Shown here in pieces: positions 965-33,547 of a stretch of DNA of 36,929 nucleotides (position 1 is its first letter; every line of letters begins with the position of its first letter). The stretch is from assembly GCA_030430025.1 (NCBI GenBank), contig JAUIGR010000024.1:1-36929 (forward strand). The letters are read 5' to 3'. Source of the DNA: Gammaproteobacteria bacterium. Its GTDB lineage: Bacteria; Pseudomonadota; Gammaproteobacteria; Xanthomonadales; Marinicellaceae. The notes beneath the pieces were generated by a model that saw only the letters and a list, made by a program, of their open reading frames with translations, had not been told where the DNA came from and ran no database searches. Position numbers and translations under genes: made by a program.

Positions 965-1522
965 TCAACTTGTTTTCATTAGTTTAAAGTCAGCTCCCAT
1001 TAACTTATTTTTTTTAATAATATCGACCACTTCATCCGTAAAATAAATGGTGTGATTTAACTTCACTTGTGGAACTCTAAAAATACTTGAAGTAACTTTA
1101 TCTTCAAAAAAACAAGCTTCAATTATTGCCGAAAAAACATTAGGGTCATTGTTAACGAAGTCTGGAACAGTCTTTGAATTATTGACATCTAGACAGTCAA
1201 CCTCATTAGTACAATGAAAGTAAAAATATTTGCTTTCAACACCTCTAACAGTTAGAGGCAATAAAATACCAGCATTTGTTAAGTGATTTTCTAATATACC
1301 AACAGCTCTTTCACTAAAAATTTTGGGAAAAGCAGATGTGAAAGTTATATCACCAAGCTCGAGTTTCTCATTGTGACCATCTTGAGGAATGATTAATTCG
1401 GGTTCTGGCCATGTTTCGATTAATGGAACAGTAAAATTTATAGTGAACAAATCAATATCATGGTCATTAGCACCTTCAATTATTGCATAATTTTCAGATG
1501 ATGTAGGTTTATAAATTCTCAT
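965..1522 (-). CDS. Probable Imm11-type immunity protein
   Basis: A 185-residue protein whose ATG (1522-1520) overlaps the TGA stop of the Rhs toxin gene as ATGA, so the two are probably translationally coupled. It has no signal peptide and should be cytoplasmic, as expected for an antitoxin against a nuclease. The C-terminal half (LPLTVRG..KYFYFHCTNEVDCLD...IYFTDEVVDIIKKNKLMGADFK) resembles the imm11/DUF1629 family, the family of Myxococcus MXAN_0049. Members often sit next to AHH-type nuclease toxins. The gene is visibly more AT-rich than the Rhs shell, which fits a horizontally exchanged toxin/immunity cassette. Family assignment is from remembered patterns; the immunity role rests mainly on position. 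Specificity for the adjacent toxin is inferred. Confidence 0.78.
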   Translation of the reverse strand: MRIYKPTSSENYAIIEGANDHDIDLFTINFTVPLIETWPEPELIIPQDGHNEKLELGDITFTSAFPKIFSERAVGILENHLTNAGILLPLTVRGVESKYFYFHCTNEVDCLDVNNSKTVPDFVNNDPNVFSAIIEACFFEDKVTSSIFRVPQVKLNHTIYFTDEVVDIIKKNKLMGADFKLMKTS

Positions 1523-4500
1523 AATCTTTTAGCTGCATTTAATGCAAGCTCTCCTGATAATAATTGAAGACGAATGTTAGTTAAAGCTGAAATTACAGAG
1601 GCTTTACCACCTGCATCAGCAGAGGAAAGAATTTCAACTACTAAATCGTCATATGCTTTTCTGTGTCGACCACAATGAATAGTAGAAACTCCTCCTCCGC
1701 CTTTGAAGCTACAGTCTGGTAAAAAGACTCCATTAGATGGTGAGTTTATATCAATATCATGCTTTTGCAAAATTTTACGTGCCTTCTCAGCATTTGCTGA
1801 TGTACCTGCCACCAAATGATGTGCTTGATGGTTAGCTGGAGCATTACCTAACACTTCCTGCATATTATGTCTTAAAGTTGTAGAGTTTGCTTTTAAGCCA
1901 AGCTTAAGCTTGACTCCACGGCCCCAAATATTTCCAAATAGTTTTATTAATTTTTCAGATTGTTTAGCTACTGGCCTAAATGCTGCCAATTTCCCATATA
2001 CAATCTCCTCAGCTATCGCTATTGCTCCACCTGCAAAGTTTCCTGTTGCAAATTGCACTGCAATAGATGCTACTGCATATGAATTAGATATGGCATTAAC
2101 ATTTTGTGCGGTAACAATTTGACCAATTGAGAAGTTTCCCGTTGGATCAATATTATTAATAGGATCGGCATGGGTATAAAGGTACTTATGCAATGACTTC
2201 GGCTCAAACGCCATTCCCGGAAAAGTATCCTTATTCTGGAATCTACCTAATTGTGGATTATAAAACCTAGCTCTTAAATAGTAGAAATGACTGTTTGGGT
2301 CATACTGTTCACCAGTAAATAGATAATTATTAGCTATATCACCATACTGATAATCGATTTCTCCAAATGCGAAATAGGCATAACTGTTTTGCACAACACC
2401 TGTATCATCAGTGAGGATTCTGGTAGAGCCTAATCCATCATAGCCATAACTATAACTGGCATTATCCTGATGTTGGCTAATCAAGTCATCACCATAGGTG
2501 TAATAGGTGATCAATTGATCGGTTTGCTCTGCAATCACTTGCGCATAAGGTCGATTGGCATCAATCAGATATTCAGTGGTAATACCATCTACTTGTTGGG
2601 ATCGTTTAATGCCTGTTGGATGGTAAGTATAGCTAATGGTCGCTTGTGGTGTTATCACTGTAATTAACTGATTTTGATGATTATAACTATACTCAGTATC
2701 CAATTGATTATCGATGGTTTTGGTCAGCGTATTACCATTGTCATCATAATTGTAACTGGTAATGATGTTATCCGTGGTTTCACTGAGCAATCGATCATTG
2801 GCATCGTACTGATAAGTCGTGACTGTGCCATCTTTGTGCTGTTCTAAGCGGTTGCCAGTACTGTCATATACCCAACTGGTCAAGTGATCACCATTGATCG
2901 GATCAGTGATGGTCTCTGTGGTTAAGCGGTACAGCTCATCATAAGTGTATTCAACAACCCGTCCAGTGCCTTCGGTCAGGCTCAAACGATTACCATTAGG
3001 TCCTAATTCATAACTGAAACTGGCCAGGATGTTTTGATTATGCGTGTGCTGTAAATCAATTAATCGATTCAAATCATCATAGAAATAATCAGTGACAACA
3101 CCATTAGCTGCCACTTGTTGTGCTCTGTTACCCACCGCATCATAACTGTAAGTGGTGGTACCTTCACTGTCAGTCACGGTTTCCAGTCGGTTTAATTCAT
3201 CAAAAGTGTAATCAACCGTCTGGTTCGCTGTTTTCAGTTGGCTGCGGTTACCATTGAGGTCATACTGATATTCGATGTAGTTCCCTGCCGGGTAGTCTAT
3301 GCGCTTGAGCCGATCTTGTTCATCATAAGTAAAGCTGGTGATGCCCAAGGCGGTGGTGATGGTGGCGATTTGTCCTGTGGCTGTGTAGGTGTTCGCTACG
3401 GTGCTGTTATCTGCATAGGTGGTTAAGATCAGCTGGTTGAGGTTGTTGTACTCATAACTGGTGGTATCGCCGTTAAAGTCTGTCATGCTGATGCGGTTAC
3501 CTACCGCATCGTAGCTGTAACTTTCGACCTGGCCCATGGGCAGGGTTCTGGATGTGACTCGGTTCAGTTCATCATATGCCCATGTGGTGGTGTTGCCCTT
3601 GGCATCGGTTTGGGTTAGCTTGTTACCGCGTTGGTCATAGCTGTAAGTGGTCTGTTGCCCTAGTGGGTCTGTGACTGTGATCAGGTTACCTGCAGCATCA
3701 TAACCATACTCAGTAGTTAATCCTGCCAGGTCAGTTTCGGCGATCTTGCGGTTGAGGCTATCATAACTCGTCGCGGTATGGGTACCATTAGCAAAGTTCG
3801 TTTGAATGAGGTTACCAGCAGCATCGTAGCTGAAAGTGGTGATCTGACCATTGGCATCAATACTTTGCACTTTCTGGCCCAGTTCGTTGTAGATAAACAC
3901 TGTTTCATTGCCCAAAGGATCAATGGTGTGGGTTCTTCTGCCCGCCTGATCATAAAGGTACTCTGTGGTGTTGCCATTGGCATCGGTGGTACTGATCAGT
4001 CTGCCTGCAGCATCATAGCTGTTACTGGTTTGGGGGTTATCATCATCTCCCGGGGTGTTATCAGGATAAATGATGGCACTGACCCGGTTGAGCGCATCAT
4101 AGATGGTTTTAGTACTCCGCCCTGCTCGGTCGATGCTTTCAATCAGGTTGTTTTCCTGGTCATAGATCTTGTGCTCCTCACTGCCATCTGGATAACGGAC
4201 TAAGATTTCATTGCCCCGTTGATCGTATTCATATTCGGTGGTGTTGCCTTTAGCATCTGTTTGCGTTGCCAGTTTACCAAGGGCAGTATAAGTGCTGATC
4301 GTTTCATGACCCAATGGATCGATGACCTTGGTGACATTGCCCATGGCATCGTATTGATACTCGGTTAGGTATTCAGCAATGATTTGATCATTCTCATCGG
4401 TGAGGATCTGGGTTTCGCTGATCACTCGGGCATCGGCATCATAAGTGCTGACGGTTTTTAGGCCATTGAGGTCAATGTGTTCACCTGAAAGTCCTGCATT

Positions 4501-7500
4501 GGTGCCTTCATGGATCGGGGTGATTGTATATTCGTTACCCGCTGCATCGGTGTAACCGGTATTCGCTGTGGTGCCGTTATTATCAGTGTACCAGTGAAAC
4601 TCAGTGCTCTGGCCCAGGGCATCAGTGACTGTTGATAGCTGACCTGTGCCCTGCGGCTGGTTATCAGGTACGTAGGTGTTGCTGATCACCACTTCGTTTA
4701 AGGCATTGGTTTGGGTCAGTAGTTCTCCTTTGTTGTTATAACTGGAGCTGGTGGTCTGGCCCAAAGGATCAGTCTCAGTCAGCTGGTTACCCATGGCATC
4801 ATAAGTCCATTCAGTACTGTGGCCCAAAGCATCGGTGCGCAGGGTCTCTAGTCGATAGCCATTGTACTGATGGTGGGTGGTTTGACCAAGCGCATTGGTC
4901 TGGGCGATGATGTTACCAGCATTATCAAAAGCATTGATGGTGGCATGGCCACGGCGATCGGTGATCGTTGAGGTCATGGCAATCAGGTCATTGTCGTATT
5001 CAATGCGGTTGCCATCGGCATCGATATGGGCTGTTAGCCTGCCCTCTTGATCATATTCATTCCTGGCCACTTTGATGCCATTAGGATCGATGATTTCCTC
5101 TAGGTAATGATCGGCAAGGTAATTGAATTCTGTGACATGGCCATTAAGATCAGTGACTGTGCTTAAGTTACCCATCTGATCATAGCTGTAATGGATGGCA
5201 TCACCGTTTTCCTTTTCGATCTGGGTGATCCGTCCTTCGTTGTCCTTAATGAAACTGACTGACAAGCCGGCTGAGTGATGGATGCCATTCTCATCAAAGC
5301 TCAATGACTGACCTGAAGTGGTGATCAGTTCAGTGACACCAAAGCCTTGTTGTAACTGATAGACGGTGCCATCAAGCATGGTCAAGGTGTAGCTATCTGG
5401 ATCAATGGCTTCAAACTCATCGATCACTTGTAGGTTACCGTTGATCACATTCAGCAGTGAAATGGAAGTAGTTAAGGCTGAGGTGGTATCTCCTTGGGGA
5501 ATAAATTCAATTTGAAAATCTCCAGGAGGCACCAGATCCTGACACTCAGGTTTACCTTCTGATGGGTTCTGTAGCTTCGCTTGGACTTTGAATTTCTCCA
5601 GCTGACCATCGGGCAATCGCACCGAGACCAATGGCTCACCCACAGGCCGGATACAATACCGAGGAAATGGCAGTGGCAGTGGATTGATGTAATAATATTC
5701 AATGTCCTGATACCAGCCAAGACCAGGTACCCTGCTTTCTGATAAATGCAATGACTCAAAACCAATCTGCCAGCCTTGGCCAAAGGCCAGCTGCTGATCA
5801 CGATCTCGGCTATCATAACCCCGGGTAACGGTGATCGGCACACCCGCCACCGCCAAATTCAGATCCTCAAAAGCCAAAGAAAAATGACCCAGCTTTAAAT
5901 CACCTTCTAGGAAGATGCTGTGGGCAACGCTGCTCTTGAAACCATTGATGTCAGTGGCTTCCAAGACAATGACATAAACACCATTTCTTAACAAGGAAGT
6001 ATCGAGCTCGGCCACTGTTTCATTATCGATATTGTTATTGCCAACCGCTAAGATGCCAGAGGCATCAGCAAACTGATCATCACTGTTAAAATAATACAAT
6101 ACCCAGTCAGTGAGGTTGTCGTCATAGACACTGATATTGATGTCAATAAAACCGGTGGTAATGCCACCATCCTCAGGACTATTGATGGTGATTTCAGGAG
6201 GCTCGGTATCAGCAGGATCACCGACAATAAAGAAACTCTCTCTCATCGCTTGGTCATTCTGATCGGTGATGGTGGCCTCAATGATATGTGTGCCTAACTG
6301 CTCAGCTGTGATGATGGCTTGGTGATTATCATCTAAAGTGATGACCTCCCCATCCAAAGTGGCACTGACGGTGACCTCACCGACGTAATTAACCGGTGTG
6401 ATGGTTAAATTCACCGGCTCACCAGGATCCACTAACTGCGGTTCAACCAAAATGGTCGCGCCCAGGACAAAACTGGAGGGTTCTACAGTGATATTCCAGA
6501 ACTGTTCAACAAAACTGTCGCCATCGGATACTTGCACAATCACTTGGTATCCACCTTCACTGATAGGCACCCAGCTGATCAAACCCTCATTATCAATTTG
6601 CATCCCAGCAGGGGCATCAATGAGTGAATAAAACAGTACCTGGTTATCATCATCATTGGCAATGATCTGATAACTATAAAGTAAATCAACCTCGCCACTA
6701 GTCGGTGGCTCTGAAATGATCTCAGGGCCATAAGAGCCGGTACCAATGGTTAAGGAATAACTTTGCGTGGCATAGCCACCTTTATCGTCCATGACTTTTA
6801 TTTTCACTTGGTGGACACCATCGGTTTGTGATTCCTCGGGCCAAGTGATTAACCCTTGTTGATCAATTAACATACCGGTTGGGCCAATGGGCAACTGGTA
6901 GCTCAAAGGATCGGTATCGATGGCCACCACTTGATACGCATAATCACCAGAATCCTGGCTATAAATGGGGATACTGATGATGTGTGGCGCCACATTCGGC
7001 TCAGTGGTGATGTGTAACTCAAACCATTGACTAGACCAGGCACCATGGATATCACTGACTTTTATTTCAAATTGATATACACCTTCATCATAGGCCAGCC
7101 ATTCCAGTAAGTTACCATTTAACGTGCTACCAATCGGCGCTTGAATCAGTTCATAACTTAAATCGTCACCATCAGCATCGGTGGCGATGACTTGGTAGCT
7201 GAACAAATCGTCAACAATCCAACCAACCAGATCTGGCATCGATTGAATAATAGGTGCTTGATTGTTATCAAGGGTGACATGAATGGTAAAGGATTGTTCA
7301 GCAAACCCACCTTGTGGGTCTTCAACACGAATGATAAAAGGATAATCCCCTTGGTTCGCTGGAGTCCATGTCAATAAACCCTCTTGATCAATCAGTGCGC
7401 CCTCAGGACTTTCAGTCAAACTGTAATTAATGGCCATGCCTTCAGGGTCAATGGCTACCACTTGATAGTCATATTCGATCCCTATACCTTCAGGAATGGC

Positions 7501-10500
7501 AGGTTCAGAGACAAAATACGGAGGCAGATTGCCCGAGGGTTCGACAATGATCTCGATTGTTGGTGGGTAAGTGGTCGCTATCCCCCACTGGTCTTGAGTG
7601 ACAATCCTGATTTCATGGACACCGACATCAGCTTCTGTAGGTAACCAGCTGACTTCACCTAAATCATTAATCATCATGCCTTCAGGTTTTTCATAAACAA
7701 AAAAGTAATCGGTGTTATCCGTTTCTGGCTCTGGATAATTGGGGTTACTTAGTTCAATGACTGCTTCATAGTTTTGCCAAGCGGTGGCATTCGGTAAATC
7801 CTGGGCAGGTGATGGCGCCCTGTTGTTTTTGGCCACTCTGATGGTGAAACTCTGTTGATCTGATAGGTCTTGACTGTCAGTGATTGACCAGTGAACAAAT
7901 TCAGATGAGGCAACGTTATTACTGGTAAAACATTCAGCCAGTGGCACTGTCGGCACCACTTGTGCAATCAAGCGTTGATAAGGCACATTAAAACCATCAA
8001 TTAAGCCATCAAGCTCAACCCGTTTGATTTCATTGAAATCCAGATCATTCACAACAGTACTACCCAACAAATGATCATTGTCTAATACATCATGATAGAA
8101 CTGGACTTGCAATTCACCGGCATAAACGACAGGCGTTAAGTTCCGTAAATCAGCATAGATTTGGTGACCATCAACGGTTTCGGTTAACTCAGGGCCTGCG
8201 ATATGCAAATCAATCATCAGGTTATTTTCAACCAGCTGATCAACTGCGACATTGATCGCTTTGTGCGGATCGCCATTACGATCCAAGGTATGACGATAAC
8301 CACCACCATCAGTGATTTCACCACCACCACTCCAGCTACCACCATTGGAGCCTAAAACATCTAAATAATGATAACCGCTGGCTCGGTAAGGCACTAAAAT
8401 CTCATAATCGCCATCGCTGTTGATGTCTGCGATCATGGGTCGATGACTGCCACCATTTCGACGCCAAAATGCGATCTGATCACCGGTCAACGGGTCAGCT
8501 ATGACCAATGTCTTACTCCCATAAGTACCATAAACCATCTCTAAGGCACCATCCTGGTTTAAATCGGTTAGCCATGGGTTATAGCGCCAGTCACTGGCCT
8601 CATTGCGAATGACCGTTCCATCTGCTTCTAGCACCACACCGGTCATCACAATCTCAACTTGATCATCATAATCCACATCAACAACGATCGGCCTAGTGAT
8701 ATCTTCGACTTGTTGAGTCCATAACAAGCTGCCATCGTGATCGAATAGTTTAACTTGATGGTTATTATTGTTTAGGCTGAATACTTGTACCCATTCCAGC
8801 ATCACATCATTATCAACATCAGCAGTCACATAATAACGTCCATAACCCATGTCGGCATGCCTGACTGAACCATCGTGGTTGTAGACGGTTTTTTGATAGA
8901 ATATTTCTTTGACTCCATCTTGATCAATATCAGCTATTGCTGCATGGTGATCCCCAGCAACGTTAATCGCTAATGATAAAGTAAATAATTCATTACCTTC
9001 CGAATTAAAGACCCGGTTGCCTGCTAGGATTTCCATCTGACCATCATTATTTAAATCATCTGCCAATATAGTCGAATGACCAATACCAACCGATGAGTAT
9101 TCAGCAGAGGTCCATAACAGTTGGCCATCACTATTCATTACATGAAGATAACCATAAGTATCTAATACCAATATTTCACGATTTAAATCACCAGTGATGT
9201 CAGCGACGGCAATGGGGTTGGCTAAGGCATAGTTAGGTGCTCTAACTTCGCTTTGAAACCATCGCTCAGTCAAAGTTTTGCCATCAATGGCCATGATGCC
9301 ATAATCACGTGAACTGATGATCACTTGATCATCGGCTTCATTGACCACACCATCTTCATTACTGTCGGTGAGTGCTGCAACTATGATGTTGGCACCTAGT
9401 GTATCACTGTCATCAGGCCCTATCATCAGTGTTCGCTCAAGTTGAGGAGCCAGGTTATGCCAATCAGGACTGTCACTACCACACCAGTGGTTACTGTGAA
9501 TCACCCCCTCGATGTAGTCAGTTTGTGCGTTTGGCCACCTGATAGGTACCAAAACACCCTCAGTTTGGTAGTCCGCTTCAGGATCTCTGTAGCCATTGAC
9601 ATACATGCCATTGGGTGCTTGGTGTAAAACCGGCGAAAAGCTTTCTATAGCATTGATGTCATTAAAATAGTGGTAGGTGTTGTAATGGTCACCCTCAATA
9701 GCTAAATAACGCTCCTCATTTGTAATTATCGGCGGCGCTAAAGGTTCATCAATAGCCAATAAAAAACCTTGGGCATCGAAATTACCATGTTGATCACTGG
9801 CTCGAATGGCCATCACATAGACTTGTTCCTCAATATCAGCCGGCACTTGCCAGCTGATCAAACCTTGCTCATCAACTGACATACCTATCGGGCTTGATAA
9901 CAGTTGGTAACTCATTTGCGCATCTTCATCAGCAATCACTGCTAACTGATATTGATAAGTGAATCCAGGATGAGCACGCACTTGTGGCTCGCTGATGATC
10001 TCAGGACCGACAATACCATCCGTTACTGTTAAACTGAAACTGCTGCTGACATAGGCGCCAGTCAGGTCTGTCACTTGTACAGTAAAGTCATGACTTTGAT
10101 CTAAATGTTCAGCCTCTGGAGTCCAGCTAAAAACACCGGTCACTGGATTAATGGTCGCTAAATCTTCACCCAATGTTAAACTGAAGTGTAACTGATCCCC
10201 TTTATTCTGATCGCTCGCTTGTACTTGCAGTGAATAATGTAAACCATAGCCAATATTGCTACTGGCGATCGGTTCAATGGTCGGTGCTATATTATGCTCT
10301 GCGATATTGACCGCGAAGTTTTGCTCATCTGTGGCTAGGCCATCACTCACTTCGGTGCTGAACAGGGCTAAACTAACCTCATTGTTATCAACATTACACT
10401 CAGTCTCAGCAGCCACGATCTCGACAGTTAAACCAGTGATATCAACCACATCGAAATTAACGATGGTGCTTTCGCCTACTGGAATGGGCTCTAGGGCATG

Positions 10501-11814
10501 ATTATTAATCACTTCCCCTGCTTTTTTTAATAGCACTTGTGCGGCACCACTGATCGATAGGCCTCGATTAATCACAGTCAGTTGTAACTGATCGGTTAAT
10601 TCCACTTGCCCAAGTGCCAGATCGGCACGATTGATTAACGAGGTTTGTTCTGCTGTGATGTGACCAACAGCAAAAGCCAAAGCTTGAGCAAAGGACTGAC
10701 GGGTGAGATCATCTGAGGTGATGGTGTTAATTTGCCAGGCACTGCCGCCACTGACTAAAGCCGGTTCAGCATAATGGATATAACTATTTCCAGCTGTAGA
10801 ACTGATATGGGCATCAGCACAGCGACTAAAACCGCCATTACCATCCGCTACATAACCAACACCATCAGCGTCAATACCCATGGCAATACTGTCATCTGGG
10901 CACTTAATCGGCGAGAAGTAGCCAATGCTATGAACCACCGTATGGGTTTGAATTAATCGTTCTTTTAAAAATTCTGTTTGTTCCGGATTACTGACACAGC
11001 TTTGACAGGGCTCATCAGTCATGAGAATAAACACCCGGGATGAATAATCACTGAAAGGATACTCATCCAAAGCCGTGTGCATCGCTCTCACGCCATTTTC
11101 GTTGCCACCCTCATTGCCCTGCACGCTCGATATCGGAAACATCAAATTAGCAAAAGTATCTATATCAGCTAAGACTTCACCCTCATCGGTTTCAATTAAT
11201 ATCGCTTGATCACCAAATTCAACTAATCCAACATCAATACCCGCTTCCCCACCTAAACCTAAACCAAGCAATTCACCATACAAACTGGGTAACCATAAAC
11301 CAATGAATATCTGTTCCTCATACATTGAGCCTGATCCATCCATTAAAGTGACCAATTCCACCTGACTCTGTTCACCCAATTGTGAGGCACTCAGTAAACA
11401 CTGATTATTAGCCGCACTGATCCCCGACGAATAATCAGCATCATTCACCGACCACTCGATCAACCCGGTCGAACTATCTTGCACCGCACCTGCTGGTCCT
11501 TCAAGCAACTGATAACTTAACTGATCACCATCGACATCAGTGGCGATCACCTGATAATCATAAGTCTCATATAAATAAGCAACAGCAGGCGCCAGCGATT
11601 CAATTACTGGTGGGTTATTGGTGTCATCACCATCAAAACCATCAGCAAAAATAACATCACCCTCAAAACCATCGGCAAAAACTAAATCAAACGCGAGTGA
11701 ATATTTATTATTGGAAAGGGACTGCTCATCCAGATAAATAACATCTTGCGAGTGAACAGAAAGTGATAAAAATAGCTGTAAACACAGCAATACAGAAAAC
11801 CGTTTCAGACTCAT
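1519..11814 (-). CDS. Giant secreted Rhs polymorphic toxin, vWA/Ig/propeller/AHH nuclease
   Basis: This 3431-residue exported protein probably delivers a nuclease into competitor cells. Residues 1-22 form a Sec signal peptide. Residues 46-50 and 56-60 are two FADGF motifs. An Ig-like segment (69-125) leads into a von Willebrand A domain with MIDAS D159-x-S161-x-S163 and D267. Ig-like/He_PIG modules follow, then an FG-GAP-like propeller (about 805-1190) containing the calcium-loop-like DSNEDGVVNEAD, then five more Ig-like modules to about 1840. The Rhs shell starts near 1970 (VTRGYDSRDRD), continues through many YD repeats and ends with the core YYLRARFYNPQLGRF (about 3175-3190). After DPTGN the AT-rich toxin begins; HQAHHLV near 3330 and IHCGRHRKAY near 3377 match the AHH branch of HNH/Endo VII nucleases. 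AAGGAGTT sits 8 nt before the ATG. No type VI secretion gene or VgrG is seen nearby, so the export route beyond Sec is unknown. Confidence 0.92.
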   Translation of the reverse strand: MSLKRFSVLLCLQLFLSLSVHSQDVIYLDEQSLSNNKYSLAFDLVFADGFEGDVIFADGFDGDDTNNPPVIESLAPAVAYLYETYDYQVIATDVDGDQLSYQLLEGPAGAVQDSSTGLIEWSVNDADYSSGISAANNQCLLSASQLGEQSQVELVTLMDGSGSMYEEQIFIGLWLPSLYGELLGLGLGGEAGIDVGLVEFGDQAILIETDEGEVLADIDTFANLMFPISSVQGNEGGNENGVRAMHTALDEYPFSDYSSRVFILMTDEPCQSCVSNPEQTEFLKERLIQTHTVVHSIGYFSPIKCPDDSIAMGIDADGVGYVADGNGGFSRCADAHISSTAGNSYIHYAEPALVSGGSAWQINTITSDDLTRQSFAQALAFAVGHITAEQTSLINRADLALGQVELTDQLQLTVINRGLSISGAAQVLLKKAGEVINNHALEPIPVGESTIVNFDVVDITGLTVEIVAAETECNVDNNEVSLALFSTEVSDGLATDEQNFAVNIAEHNIAPTIEPIASSNIGYGLHYSLQVQASDQNKGDQLHFSLTLGEDLATINPVTGVFSWTPEAEHLDQSHDFTVQVTDLTGAYVSSSFSLTVTDGIVGPEIISEPQVRAHPGFTYQYQLAVIADEDAQMSYQLLSSPIGMSVDEQGLISWQVPADIEEQVYVMAIRASDQHGNFDAQGFLLAIDEPLAPPIITNEERYLAIEGDHYNTYHYFNDINAIESFSPVLHQAPNGMYVNGYRDPEADYQTEGVLVPIRWPNAQTDYIEGVIHSNHWCGSDSPDWHNLAPQLERTLMIGPDDSDTLGANIIVAALTDSNEDGVVNEADDQVIISSRDYGIMAIDGKTLTERWFQSEVRAPNYALANPIAVADITGDLNREILVLDTYGYLHVMNSDGQLLWTSAEYSSVGIGHSTILADDLNNDGQMEILAGNRVFNSEGNELFTLSLAINVAGDHHAAIADIDQDGVKEIFYQKTVYNHDGSVRHADMGYGRYYVTADVDNDVMLEWVQVFSLNNNNHQVKLFDHDGSLLWTQQVEDITRPIVVDVDYDDQVEIVMTGVVLEADGTVIRNEASDWRYNPWLTDLNQDGALEMVYGTYGSKTLVIADPLTGDQIAFWRRNGGSHRPMIADINSDGDYEILVPYRASGYHYLDVLGSNGGSWSGGGEITDGGGYRHTLDRNGDPHKAINVAVDQLVENNLMIDLHIAGPELTETVDGHQIYADLRNLTPVVYAGELQVQFYHDVLDNDHLLGSTVVNDLDFNEIKRVELDGLIDGFNVPYQRLIAQVVPTVPLAECFTSNNVASSEFVHWSITDSQDLSDQQSFTIRVAKNNRAPSPAQDLPNATAWQNYEAVIELSNPNYPEPETDNTDYFFVYEKPEGMMINDLGEVSWLPTEADVGVHEIRIVTQDQWGIATTYPPTIEIIVEPSGNLPPYFVSEPAIPEGIGIEYDYQVVAIDPEGMAINYSLTESPEGALIDQEGLLTWTPANQGDYPFIIRVEDPQGGFAEQSFTIHVTLDNNQAPIIQSMPDLVGWIVDDLFSYQVIATDADGDDLSYELIQAPIGSTLNGNLLEWLAYDEGVYQFEIKVSDIHGAWSSQWFELHITTEPNVAPHIISIPIYSQDSGDYAYQVVAIDTDPLSYQLPIGPTGMLIDQQGLITWPEESQTDGVHQVKIKVMDDKGGYATQSYSLTIGTGSYGPEIISEPPTSGEVDLLYSYQIIANDDDNQVLFYSLIDAPAGMQIDNEGLISWVPISEGGYQVIVQVSDGDSFVEQFWNITVEPSSFVLGATILVEPQLVDPGEPVNLTITPVNYVGEVTVSATLDGEVITLDDNHQAIITAEQLGTHIIEATITDQNDQAMRESFFIVGDPADTEPPEITINSPEDGGITTGFIDINISVYDDNLTDWVLYYFNSDDQFADASGILAVGNNNIDNETVAELDTSLLRNGVYVIVLEATDINGFKSSVAHSIFLEGDLKLGHFSLAFEDLNLAVAGVPITVTRGYDSRDRDQQLAFGQGWQIGFESLHLSESRVPGLGWYQDIEYYYINPLPLPFPRYCIRPVGEPLVSVRLPDGQLEKFKVQAKLQNPSEGKPECQDLVPPGDFQIEFIPQGDTTSALTTSISLLNVINGNLQVIDEFEAIDPDSYTLTMLDGTVYQLQQGFGVTELITTSGQSLSFDENGIHHSAGLSVSFIKDNEGRITQIEKENGDAIHYSYDQMGNLSTVTDLNGHVTEFNYLADHYLEEIIDPNGIKVARNEYDQEGRLTAHIDADGNRIEYDNDLIAMTSTITDRRGHATINAFDNAGNIIAQTNALGQTTHHQYNGYRLETLRTDALGHSTEWTYDAMGNQLTETDPLGQTTSSSYNNKGELLTQTNALNEVVISNTYVPDNQPQGTGQLSTVTDALGQSTEFHWYTDNNGTTANTGYTDAAGNEYTITPIHEGTNAGLSGEHIDLNGLKTVSTYDADARVISETQILTDENDQIIAEYLTEYQYDAMGNVTKVIDPLGHETISTYTALGKLATQTDAKGNTTEYEYDQRGNEILVRYPDGSEEHKIYDQENNLIESIDRAGRSTKTIYDALNRVSAIIYPDNTPGDDDNPQTSNSYDAAGRLISTTDANGNTTEYLYDQAGRRTHTIDPLGNETVFIYNELGQKVQSIDANGQITTFSYDAAGNLIQTNFANGTHTATSYDSLNRKIAETDLAGLTTEYGYDAAGNLITVTDPLGQQTTYSYDQRGNKLTQTDAKGNTTTWAYDELNRVTSRTLPMGQVESYSYDAVGNRISMTDFNGDTTSYEYNNLNQLILTTYADNSTVANTYTATGQIATITTALGITSFTYDEQDRLKRIDYPAGNYIEYQYDLNGNRSQLKTANQTVDYTFDELNRLETVTDSEGTTTYSYDAVGNRAQQVAANGVVTDYFYDDLNRLIDLQHTHNQNILASFSYELGPNGNRLSLTEGTGRVVEYTYDELYRLTTETITDPINGDHLTSWVYDSTGNRLEQHKDGTVTTYQYDANDRLLSETTDNIITSYNYDDNGNTLTKTIDNQLDTEYSYNHQNQLITVITPQATISYTYHPTGIKRSQQVDGITTEYLIDANRPYAQVIAEQTDQLITYYTYGDDLISQHQDNASYSYGYDGLGSTRILTDDTGVVQNSYAYFAFGEIDYQYGDIANNYLFTGEQYDPNSHFYYLRARFYNPQLGRFQNKDTFPGMAFEPKSLHKYLYTHADPINNIDPTGNFSIGQIVTAQNVNAISNSYAVASIAVQFATGNFAGGAIAIAEEIVYGKLAAFRPVAKQSEKLIKLFGNIWGRGVKLKLGLKANSTTLRHNMQEVLGNAPANHQAHHLVAGTSANAEKARKILQKHDIDINSPSNGVFLPDCSFKGGGGVSTIHCGRHRKAYDDLVVEILSSADAGGKASVISALTNIRLQLLSGELALNAAKRL
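3942..4883. repeat. Direct repeat copy B (inside main Rhs gene)
   Basis: Encodes roughly residues 2311-2624 of the main Rhs protein and is the partner of 1-942. Differences from copy A are scattered single-base changes without indels, and many alter the amino acid (for example GNVTKV versus GNTIQV), so both frames remain open. Confidence 0.93.
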
Positions 11815-31078: not shown

Positions 31079-31131
31079 TACTTTTTATAATCGTGAAACA
31101 AACCGATATTCGGGCCTGCTTTACCGATGGC

Positions 31132-31447
31132 TAATTAGTCGAACCTGAAAAATGCATAACTTATTGTTAAATATAAAGAGTTACTTCAATCTTGCACCTT
31201 TTTTCGACTTAAAAACAGGTGCCTCGATTCATTTTTATTCGCTGCTTCCATGCGGCTCTCAGTAACGTGAAAAAGTTTTCCAGAAACTTTTTTCTGGTCG
31301 ATGGTGGTATGGCACATGGAAGTGCCACCTTGAGCCGTCAGGCTCAAGTGAGGTCAAAAAACATCAGCAAAATCACACTTTTGCGGTTAAGTGTTTTTTA
31401 AACCGAATCTGAAAAAGGCCAGGATGGACTTTTTTCAGGGTTAATTA
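31132..31447 (+). repeat. MITE-like structured repeat, copy 1
   Basis: A roughly 316-bp non-coding element, about 85 % identical by eye to 33230-33547 in the same orientation. The left end TAATTAG...ACCTGAAAAA (31132-31152) and the right end TTTTTTCAGG...TAATTA (31430-31447) form an imperfect terminal inverted repeat. Inside are an outer stem CTTCCATG (31245-31252) with CATGGAAG (31315-31322), enclosing the hairpin CCAGAAA/TTTCTGG (31280-31297). A hairpin TTGAGCC-GTCA-GGCTCAA (31330-31347) and the stem CTGAAAAAG/CTTTTTTCAG (31409-31438) follow. It encodes no transposase. It lies in the 450-base gap between ETF-QO and the beta-helix gene. Confidence 0.85.
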
Positions 31448-31528
31448 ACTATTAAATTCAAAAAAAATGATCTCTTTTTAATGTTTTTTTCGTGATACAT
31501 CAAAACATATTTAATAAAGGGAAACATT

Positions 31529-33199
31529 ATGAAAAAAGTCGCATTGATCACATTCAGTTTGATGATCAGCAATCTATCTAAAGCAGGCGAAGTAGAAGTT
31601 CGCGAGCATTTACAGCTAATCGTACCTTTTCTAACAACCATTGAAAATACTGAAATAGTCAATCCAATCACTGTTGGTAATGAAGCTTCATGTGACTACA
31701 GTACTATTCAGGGTGCTATTGACGCAGGAGCTGACCAGGTCAGAATCACAGACAAAGGTGTACCCTACTATGAAAATCTAGTGATTACTGATAAGACTGT
31801 TTCCCTCAAAGGTAATTATGCTAATTGCCAAGATGCCAGTAATAACATTGAAAGTGATGTCAAAGCGATCATCGATGGCAGTCAAAATAATAGTGTTTTT
31901 TGGATAAGTACAAAAAACATCAACATGCAATACAATGCCATCAGTCATCTCATCATTCAAAATGGTACTGCTGTAAATGGTGGGGGTATAGTAATCAGCT
32001 CTCATTCAAATATTTTTGCCAGTTTGGATAATGTAGAGCTTACATCTAATGTAAGCTCACATTCCTTAGGAAATGGCTCAGCCATCTATATTTCATCACT
32101 TGGTGGAGACGATTATCTGGCCCACCTTTATGTTAAAGACAACCTAATAGCTAATAACTCCGGGGGTAGGTCTGTTATCAGCGGATCAAATCAATGGACC
32201 ATAGCGATTGATGGCAACACAACAATCAACAACAACATGAGTCGTGGCATTAATGCTGGCAGCTACAGCAAACTAACCATTTTTTCACCTGTCACCATCT
32301 CAGGTAATCAGTCAGATGTAAATGGTGGTGGATTAGCGATCAACGATAAAGTCGATCTATACGGCAAGCGCATGTGTGAGCAAGGTTATTGTTTTGGATC
32401 TAATACTCAACCGATCAGTATTATCAACAATACGACAACTGGTAACGGTGGTGGTATCTATATTCGCAACTTAAGTGGCCCTCTTGATATGCATAATGTC
32501 ACTTTCAGAGGCAATCAGGCTGCTTTAGGCGGTGCTTTTTTTATTGACTCCAATAACCAAGGAGGTTCTTTCGTCATAGACTCTAGCCATTTTGAAGCGA
32601 ACCGAGCTGATATTGGTACGATTGGTTGGATTGTTGGCAGTGAAAATCAAATTTATGCTCCACATGATGTTACTATTCAGAATGCTGTCATAACTAATAA
32701 TGGTAAAGGTGGTGTCGGTAATTATATGGATAATTATTTGTTTTATATAGATACTCGATCAGATTTGAGCTTAACTTATAACACGATAGTGGATAATCAA
32801 GTCGAAGGTCCTTTGATCTTAGCTAATAATGGCAATACTGGTGTCAATACCTCGGTATTAACAAGCATCGTCGATGAACCTAATGATTTGTTTTATGGTT
32901 CCCTCGGTTCAACATTTTATGCTGAATGTTTATTAATGCAAAACAGCAATAATTTACCAATTGCTAATCATATCATTGTTGGTGAGCCCGCATTTGTTGA
33001 CCCAGCTGCAGGTGACTATCACCTCACTAATGACTCTCCTGCTATAGATTTCTGTGGCCTGATTGTCAATGAACCCTCTACTGATAAAGACAACGTACAA
33101 CGAGGATTCAACTATCCATTAAAACCTAATGTATATGGCCCCTATGACTTAGGTGCTTACGAACTCAGTGATATTATTTTTGCAGATGATTTTGAATAA
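31529..33199 (+). CDS. Secreted right-handed beta-helix protein with FADDFE tail
   Basis: A 556-residue exported protein of unknown function. Residues 1-19 (MKKVALITFSLMISNLSKA) are a signal peptide. SCDYSTIQGAIDAGADQVRIT, about 35 residues into the mature protein, is the typical lead-in of the pectate-lyase-like/parallel beta-helix class. Many short turns follow with Asn ladders (for example NGTAVNGGGIVISSHS, NNTTTGNGGGIYIRNL, FRGNQAALGGAFFI). It has no obvious catalytic signature, so it could be an adhesin-like surface protein rather than a lyase. LGAYELSDIIFADDFE closes the protein, a variant of the IFADGF tail. AAGGGA before the ATG is the ribosome binding site. It stands alone between two copies of a structured repeat. 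Confidence 0.85.
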   Translation: MKKVALITFSLMISNLSKAGEVEVREHLQLIVPFLTTIENTEIVNPITVGNEASCDYSTIQGAIDAGADQVRITDKGVPYYENLVITDKTVSLKGNYANCQDASNNIESDVKAIIDGSQNNSVFWISTKNINMQYNAISHLIIQNGTAVNGGGIVISSHSNIFASLDNVELTSNVSSHSLGNGSAIYISSLGGDDYLAHLYVKDNLIANNSGGRSVISGSNQWTIAIDGNTTINNNMSRGINAGSYSKLTIFSPVTISGNQSDVNGGGLAINDKVDLYGKRMCEQGYCFGSNTQPISIINNTTTGNGGGIYIRNLSGPLDMHNVTFRGNQAALGGAFFIDSNNQGGSFVIDSSHFEANRADIGTIGWIVGSENQIYAPHDVTIQNAVITNNGKGGVGNYMDNYLFYIDTRSDLSLTYNTIVDNQVEGPLILANNGNTGVNTSVLTSIVDEPNDLFYGSLGSTFYAECLLMQNSNNLPIANHIIVGEPAFVDPAAGDYHLTNDSPAIDFCGLIVNEPSTDKDNVQRGFNYPLKPNVYGPYDLGAYELSDIIFADDFE

Positions 33200-33229
33200 T
33201 GTTTTACATGCATTGTAAATACATTGCAG

Positions 33230-33547
33230 TAAATAGTCGAACCTGAAAATTGCATAACTTATTGTTAAATATGAAGAGTGACATTAATCCTTGCACATTT
33301 TTTCAACCAGAAAACAGGGGGCACAAGGCATTTTTATTCGCCGCTTCCATACAGCTCTCAGGCTAACATGAAAGAGTTTTCCAGAAACTTTTTTCTGGTC
33401 GATGGTATGATAGATGGAAGTGCCACCTTGAGCCGTCAGGTTCAAGCAAGGTCAAAAAACATCAGCAAAATCACACTTCTGTGATTAAACGTTTTTTAAC
33501 CAAATCTGAAAAAGGCCAGGATGGACTTTTTCAGGGTTAGCTAATTA
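33230..33547 (+). repeat. MITE-like structured repeat, copy 2
   Basis: Partner of 31132-31447. The hairpins are conserved: CTTCCAT/ATGGAAG (33344-33350 and 33414-33420), CCAGAAA/TTTCTGG (33381-33398), TTGAGCC/GGTTCAA (33428-33445, with one C-to-T change kept as a G-U pair) and a perfect 9-bp CTGAAAAAG/CTTTTTCAG (33506-33534). The right terminal repeat (33527-33547) ends GCTAATTA. The left one starts TAAATAG, one base off copy 1. Confidence 0.85.

Follow-up and report, generated by a model that had tools for sequence, protein, structure and literature searches.

Did two copies of a repeat bring the gene between them to its present place, or did each arrive on its own? This question is raised by a contig of 36,929 nucleotides (JAUIGR010000024.1, assembly GCA_030430025.1; the whole stretch is here called the window) from a gammaproteobacterium of the family Marinicellaceae, in which a non-coding, structured repeat occurs twice, in the same orientation, on either side of a gene for a beta-helix surface-type protein. 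An earlier note on this DNA had read the arrangement as a composite, non-autonomous mobile unit carrying the gene. The repeats are members of a family of IS5-type miniature inverted-repeat transposable elements (MITEs), and so belong to a known kind of element. Most probably they are two separate insertions of that family, the gene not being carried by a joint unit.

The two repeats and their ends

The two direct, non-coding copies flank the beta-helix gene at the coordinates that the earlier note had given. They are identical at 261 of 303 aligned bases, and neither contains an open reading frame of 100 amino acids (aa). The outer inverted repeat reported at 31132-31152 and 33527-33547 was also recovered, with 81% complementarity (17 of 21 positions), as was GCTAATTA at both outer borders (31130-31137 and 33540-33547). 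The outer pair is a real inverted repeat, but it is not special, as all four ends fit one pattern. This pattern, allowing up to three mismatches, matches the window four times, at the four copy ends (shuffle mean 0.33, with 0 of 100 shuffles reaching four), and within copy 1 one end is likewise an inverted repeat of the other (76%). Similarly, GCTAATTA is in place on both sides, but its GC has a different origin at each border: flanking DNA on the left, and on the right a mutated element tip, where the family consensus reads ...GAC followed by TANNTA. The presence of a separate pair of ends on each copy counts against a composite transposon.

A MITE family abundant in one genome

The element was defined from 30 copies elsewhere in the genome plus the second window copy (strands mixed), and then from 28 long-class copies placed on one strand. 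In this form it is about 306 bp long, with GTCGAACCTGAAAAA at the left, TTTTTCAGGNNTGAC at the right and a TANNTA hexamer at each end. The ends of the family can be written GTC-RNN-CCTGAAAAA, inverted, with a 6-bp TANNTA duplication. A repeat search of the same genome gave 221 candidates, and the 40 that were scored all match at 85-100% identity. Across the whole genome (3.08 Mb) there are 177 + 175 = 352 end matches with up to two mismatches (reversed-pattern control 1 + 3), and 152 + 149 = 301 with up to one (control 0). If the ends pair, this amounts to about 150-175 elements, some of them being copies of an insertion sequence (IS). Counted with their hexamers, members fall into classes of about 318, 258 and 55 bp, with intermediates, and lie at unrelated genes across many contigs. 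Their divergence from the 28-copy consensus ranges from 2 to 13%, most being near 3%, and the window copies (9.5% and 13.4%) are among the most diverged.

Outside this genome the family is sparse. With copy 1 as the query, 13 of 101 genomes (its own included) gave a match at E <= 0.001, the strongest outside matches coming from two genomes of the same genus (G014 and G005) and several of the 13 having only short partial matches. End counts with up to one mismatch in 33 genomes of the bacterial family were 301 in the own genome, 32 in G005, 19 in G014, four in G011, one to three in six genomes of another genus and zero in the other 23 (the control gave single matches in three genomes). Among these 33 genomes, the MITE family is abundant only in its own. 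The search of genome and relatives that the earlier note had proposed thus returned 352 ends at home and few in relatives, and the single-copy repeat with fixed neighbours that it had also considered did not hold, there being some 150-175 elements. Plasmids and phages gave no match to a copy from the same genome (L004; blastn, E <= 1e-5), viral contigs did not contain the 22-base left end in exact form, and a literature search at the level of titles and abstract openings found none naming this MITE family.

A probable IS5-type parent element

Relics of a probable parent element occur in the same genome. At C45:9513-10977 there is a 1,465-bp IS (hexamers included) with both ends, one of them with one mismatch, TAATTA on each side, and a transposase gene split over two frames. 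At C2:10850-12468 a broken transposase gene, with a 258-bp MITE inside, lies between two unpaired ends separated by 1.6 kb, and this relic has the same ends as the MITE together with TAATTA on both sides. A transposase whose own ends carry CCTGAAAAA, which the earlier note had suggested looking for, is therefore present in the same genome, in both the C2 relic and the C45 IS. All four transposase pieces from C2 and C45 have NF033578 (IS5 family) as their best NCBIfam model. The two C45 halves match it at 8.3e-72 and 3e-74, with 242.6 and 250.6 bits against a whole-protein cut-off of 275 bits, and the C2 pieces match DUF772 and DDE_Tnp_1 in Pfam. Further transposase relics are found in C49, C38, C107 and C53, and in C49 and C38 an IS fragment runs up to the contig end. 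Together, the ends and the protein matches indicate that the MITE family derives from an IS5-family insertion sequence with an NF033578-type transposase and is itself non-autonomous. In 17 other genomes of the genus, a 131-aa transposase query found distant matches in three (best E 1.6e-5, 29-32% identity), and none in G005 and G014, although both carry MITE ends.

The same transposase group could be followed into other phyla. A scan of named genomes gave at least 588 stretches and at least 568 relatives of the transposase, of which 80 were kept; 55 of the 80 loci were analysed for ends, which were picked blind to the flanks, and 50 had room on both sides. Among the matches listed, 36 of the 50 relatives have GTCGNNCCTGAA ends at both sides (up to one mismatch), and the flanking 6-mers are identical in 20 of these 36 (5000 shuffles: mean 1.3, maximum 8). 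When ends were sought by comparing copies, two of six relative groups gave clear ends and four did not. In a genome of the Planctomycetaceae (CP030884), eight IS copies have the aligned ends GTCGTCCCTGAA and TTCAGGGTCGAC, with identical 6-bp flanks in 8/8, and in a second group of relatives (L190, L192) the 6-bp flanks agree in 2/2.

Target sites and an empty site

Of 49 distinct pairs of element ends from the genome (accepted at up to four mismatches), 25 have the same hexamer on the left and on the right, whereas shuffling of partners (2000 times) gave a mean of 8.0 and a maximum of 15. The commonest hexamer is TAATTA, which accounts for 17 of the 49 left hexamers. Blastn found 60 pieces in a 533-kb sample made up mostly of stretches picked for carrying copies; 38 of them reach 200 bp or more, and in 20 of these 38 the flanking hexamers are identical. 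In two contigs read almost in full (C107 and C11, 320 kb) open frames of at least 150 aa cover 83-90% of the sequence and only 2 of 40 piece ends lie inside them, so insertions appear to be mainly intergenic.

An empty site is preserved in an IS fragment which ends contig C49. This fragment is without the 246-bp MITE (258 bp with hexamers) of C2:12124-12381, and matches the C2 IS at 95.8% over 96 bp and 99.2% over 130 bp. TAAATA occurs once in the empty site and on both sides of the MITE in the filled one, indicating that a single MITE inserted alone, with a 6-bp duplication, into an IS of the type coding for its probable transposase. The many end matches, the duplication at the copies' own pairs of ends, the IS relics with the same ends, the ends in relatives and this empty site together identify the repeat as a MITE family. 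The description of it as MITE-like, structured and non-autonomous therefore stands, given abundant copies, inverted ends, a target duplication and no transposase inside.

Probable separate insertions at the window locus

In the explanation that we favour, transposase made by a copy of the IS would act in trans on the MITE ends and would have spread the family to its ~150-175 elements. Insertions would target mostly TANNTA sites in AT-rich intergenic DNA, each with a 6-bp duplication, and the beta-helix gene would have come to lie between two copies through independent hits in the intergenic gaps on both its sides. An even scatter of copies would give ~6-11 direct pairs within 1.8 kb. When pieces shorter than 170 bp are set aside, the sampled 533 kb contains five pairs of direct neighbours no more than 2.2 kb apart, namely that of the window and those in C2, C6, C58 and C73; with all 60 pieces, short ones included, the number is 11. 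The C2 pair encloses a glyoxalase-like gene and a pyrroline-5-carboxylate reductase gene, and the C58 pair encloses aminopeptidase P and an MGMT-type DNA-binding gene. One C2 copy, both C58 copies and one C73 copy retain an intact duplication of their own, the second C73 copy being cut by the contig end. At C58 the outer hexamers are both TAATTA, yet each copy has its own TAATTA pair, so a match between outer hexamers says little.

Several observations weigh against separate insertion. The window copies' own hexamers differ by one base each, and the outer hexamers are both TAATTA. The difference in copy 1 is ambiguous, as either two substitutions or a 4-bp deletion would account for its right tip. 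By a rough estimate, the likelihood ratio in favour of a joint outer duplication lies between 4.5 (deletion reading) and 74 (substitution reading), if a family-average mismatch rate is assumed and all copies decay alike; because the window copies are much more diverged than the typical copy, the ratio drops to ~1.6-12 by rough arithmetic once their greater age is allowed for. Elsewhere, the second C2 copy has the unlike hexamers TAAGTA/TATTTA, and the C6 pair is without an exact duplication of its own. No intact single-frame transposase was found among the own-genome matches. Finally, no empty site for the window locus was found through the neighbouring genes, either ETF-QO (15 relatives) or the TonB-receptor gene (11 relatives). 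Separate insertion, which the earlier note had named as the contrary outcome, is thus documented for other copies, by the 25 identical hexamer pairs and the C49/C2 empty site, but not by an empty site at the window itself.

Alternative explanations

The first alternative is a composite MITE transposon, in which both copies and the gene moved jointly, the transposase using the outermost ends (left in copy 1, right in copy 2), in a TIME-COMP-like manner. In its favour, the copies are direct and close, the hexamers agree on the outside of the pair but differ around each copy, the loci read beside ETF-QO in relatives gave no homolog of the gene, and there is a precedent for MITE pairs moving DNA (PMC4133298). 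However, a match in the family's commonest hexamer is weak evidence, and C58 has the same outer match despite a TAATTA pair around each copy. Both window copies are old and have decayed. The block was not seen a second time in the genome, the best other protein match (62%) lying at a locus without a pair, and neither of the two closest paralogs is enclosed by one. Housekeeping genes, too, are found inside close pairs of this sort, and in three of the four other pairs a copy has its own duplication intact. Few composites are expected beforehand, and we therefore regard joint movement as unlikely. The mobile unit proposed in the earlier note is not supported, in view of the copies' own end pairs, the pairs around housekeeping genes and the paralogs without a pair.

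The paralogs themselves share 62% and 47% protein identity with the beta-helix protein, and the best full-length match in 17 genomes of the genus has 35%. At the locus of the 62% paralog (C45) there is an IS upstream only, and in the 6 kb examined around the 47% paralog there is no element. The beta-helix gene and the C45 paralog have element ends at comparable positions upstream. A shared ancestral insertion was considered and rejected: the two genes have 67.7% DNA identity, whereas MITE copies are 2-13% from their consensus. As gene divergence far exceeds MITE divergence, the insertions are taken to be younger than the gene duplication.

The beta-helix protein gives 64 match rows in its own genome, compared with 2-20 in the 17 other genomes of the genus (long proteins can give two rows), pointing to an expanded surface-protein family. 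An IS5-type counterpart of TIME-COMP, with MITE pairs serving as composite ends and shuffling beta-helix surface genes in a genome with many related ones, seems to us quite unlikely. Also seen at C45 (11030-11400 and 13555-14541; L132) are a tyrosine-recombinase integrase gene (Pfam Phage_integrase) and GC-rich DNA, beside a truncated MITE and the IS. We take this GC-rich DNA to resemble attC, possibly as part of a chromosomal integron.

A rearrangement junction is the next alternative, in which recombination between distant MITE copies joined ETF-QO, the beta-helix gene and the TonB gene and left mixed hexamers behind. The gene order in relatives is relevant here. A search of 18 genomes (own included) located ETF-QO in 16, and its loci were read for 1.5 kb downstream in the own genome and 15 relatives (14 full-length genes and one partial). 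In these stretches the relatives gave neither an element end (up to four mismatches) nor a homolog of the beta-helix protein (E <= 1e-5); only the own locus has both. In 13 of the 15 a cold-shock gene stands next to ETF-QO. In G006 there is a different secreted protein on the other strand, which we take from the look of its sequence alone to be of a repeat type. ETF-QO and the TonB-receptor gene are apart in relatives where both could be placed: by 165 kb on one contig in G017, by ~174 kb in G013, and on different contigs in nine others. Upstream of the TonB gene (own locus and those of 11 relatives) one small gene recurs and the others vary, and in the 11 relatives there is no end match below four mismatches. 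No empty site was found because gene order is too different in the relatives.

These separations, the cold-shock neighbour and the unlike hexamers of both window copies would all suit such a junction, and a rearrangement of the own genome at this locus is possible. However, hexamer mismatches in the 28 long-class copies fall in both the fixed bases (seven copies) and the variable bases (five copies), as plain mutation predicts, and gene order varies among relatives anyway, even without MITE ends. Recombination between MITE copies is therefore a very unlikely source of the present arrangement.

Structure and the hairpin block

Maintenance of the repeats as structured RNA or regulatory parts of the beta-helix gene is extremely improbable: copy 1 folds strongly as a single strand (z = -5.08; 0 of 100 shuffles as good) and has a terminator-like stem on the minus strand (five such sites in the region vs 1.9 in shuffles), but the window has no Rfam match at gathering scores, only 3 of 77 consensus pairs change on both sides across the 28 copies (covariation term ~0), and copies lie at unrelated genes on many contigs. 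A structured-RNA function of the MITE was thus rejected, Rfam and covariation both having given nothing. The structure of the copies appears to be that of a palindromic element, with no sign of maintained RNA.

Compared with the 258-bp class, the long class has an extra block of ~58 bp with the hairpin GTGAAAAAGTTTTCCAGAAACTTTTTT. A hairpin pattern with free stem bases has matches in 13 of the 33 genomes of the bacterial family, and 0 control matches in every genome. Exact instances in the fetched loci make up 23 rows, 22 of them with complementary free bases; removal of five duplicate rows from overlapping loci leaves 18 places, of which 17 are complementary and three are in the own genome. 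Five stem types are seen (AG/CT, TA/TA, TC/GA, TG/CA and AA/TT). In loci chosen for one such hairpin (overlaps kept), 90 of 137 hairpins have a GGA or TCC loop. Genome-wide enrichment of GGA loops was not found in 400 kb from ten relatives sampled at round coordinates (16/203 hairpins vs 9/101 in shuffles). A tRNA gene is present in 6 of the 11 relatives' loci scanned, from four genomes.

Separate clusters of GGA/TCC-loop hairpins that look like this block occur in related genomes (L283-L311), most of which are without this MITE's ends, and the long MITE class seems, from this likeness, to contain such a hairpin module. A similar module breaks the transposase frame at the same place in the C2 relic (L102) and the C38 relic (L109), which differ by several bases. 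Either the module inserted on its own or a broken IS was copied with the module inside. Mosaic hairpin arrays with recurring parts are also seen (L039, L040, L283, L285). One part, CCATTCAC-TTCCCT-GTGAATGG, occurs in G011, also in G002 and, in varied form, in G004; another, GTATC-AGGAC-GATAC, occurs in G011.

Features of the window

Coordinates of the two copies, their parts and the enclosed gene are collected in Table 1. Elsewhere in the window, at 1519-11814, there is a minus-strand open reading frame of 3431 aa.

Table 1. Positions in the window of the two MITE copies, their component parts and the gene between them.
Feature	Position	Strand	Remarks
MITE copy 1 with hexamers	31132-31451		320 bp
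Left target hexamer TAATTA, copy 1	31132-31137	.	TANNTA directly repeated at both ends of family members
MITE copy 1, long (~306-bp) class	31138-31445	+	308 bp; 9.5% from 28-copy consensus
Left terminal inverted repeat, copy 1 (GTCGAACCTGAAAAA)	31138-31152	+	0 mismatches to TANNTAGTCRNNCCTGAAAAA
Hairpin block, copy 1	31232-31287	+	In long class, absent from 258-bp class
Right terminal inverted repeat, copy 1	31431-31445	-	Tip: two changes or 4-bp deletion
Right hexamer TAACTA, copy 1	31446-31451	.	Substitution reading
Alternative right hexamer TAATTA, copy 1	31442-31447	.	4-bp deletion reading
Beta-helix / POMP-repeat surface-type protein gene	31529-33199	+	556 aa; enclosed by both copies
MITE copy 2 with hexamers	33230-33547		318 bp
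Left target hexamer TAAATA, copy 2	33230-33235	.	
MITE copy 2, long class	33236-33541	+	306 bp; 13.4% from 28-copy consensus
Hairpin block, copy 2	33331-33388	+	In long class, absent from 258-bp class
Right terminal inverted repeat, copy 2	33527-33541	-	2 mismatches to end pattern
Right target hexamer TAATTA, copy 2	33542-33547	.	

Significance and comparison with known systems

A high-copy MITE family with a probable parent IS, exact ends and a 6-bp TANNTA target means that such copies can be correctly annotated, and the end motif with its 6-bp duplication across phyla provides a usable rule for finding MITEs of this transposase group elsewhere. A composite would matter more if true, but the evidence does not require one.

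One close comparison is with the NF033578 (transpos_IS5_1) elements of the IS5 family, which like the window MITEs have GTCGNNCCTGAA ends and a TANNTA-like duplication. The duplication is of equal length, 6 bp, in the MITEs and in the IS group (20/36 among the matches listed). These IS relatives are 1.2-1.6 kb long, most near 1.5 kb, and carry a transposase, whereas the window copies do not. Correia elements, which are classical MITEs, resemble the window family in being short and multicopy, with terminal inverted repeats shared with an IS and a target duplication.

BrickBuilt of Porphyromonas gingivalis is described in PMC4596501 as a prokaryotic MITE with IS5-type ends. Like the window family it is short and multicopy, with a target duplication and terminal inverted repeats in common with a resident IS (PMC4596501). 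According to the same source, its duplications vary in length and sequence in three of four copies, whereas those of the window family are a uniform 6 bp of TANNTA, and it has 19 copies compared with the ~150-175 elements here (PMC4596501).

Correia elements are mentioned in PMC4133298 alongside TIME-COMP, composite structures bounded by Tn3-derived MITEs (PMC4133298, PMC13367494). As at the window locus, two MITE copies bracket the DNA of a TIME-COMP (PMC4133298). TIME-COMP has Tn3-type ends and demonstrated movement of the block (PMC4133298), whereas the ends at the window locus are IS5-type and movement of its block would be hypothetical.

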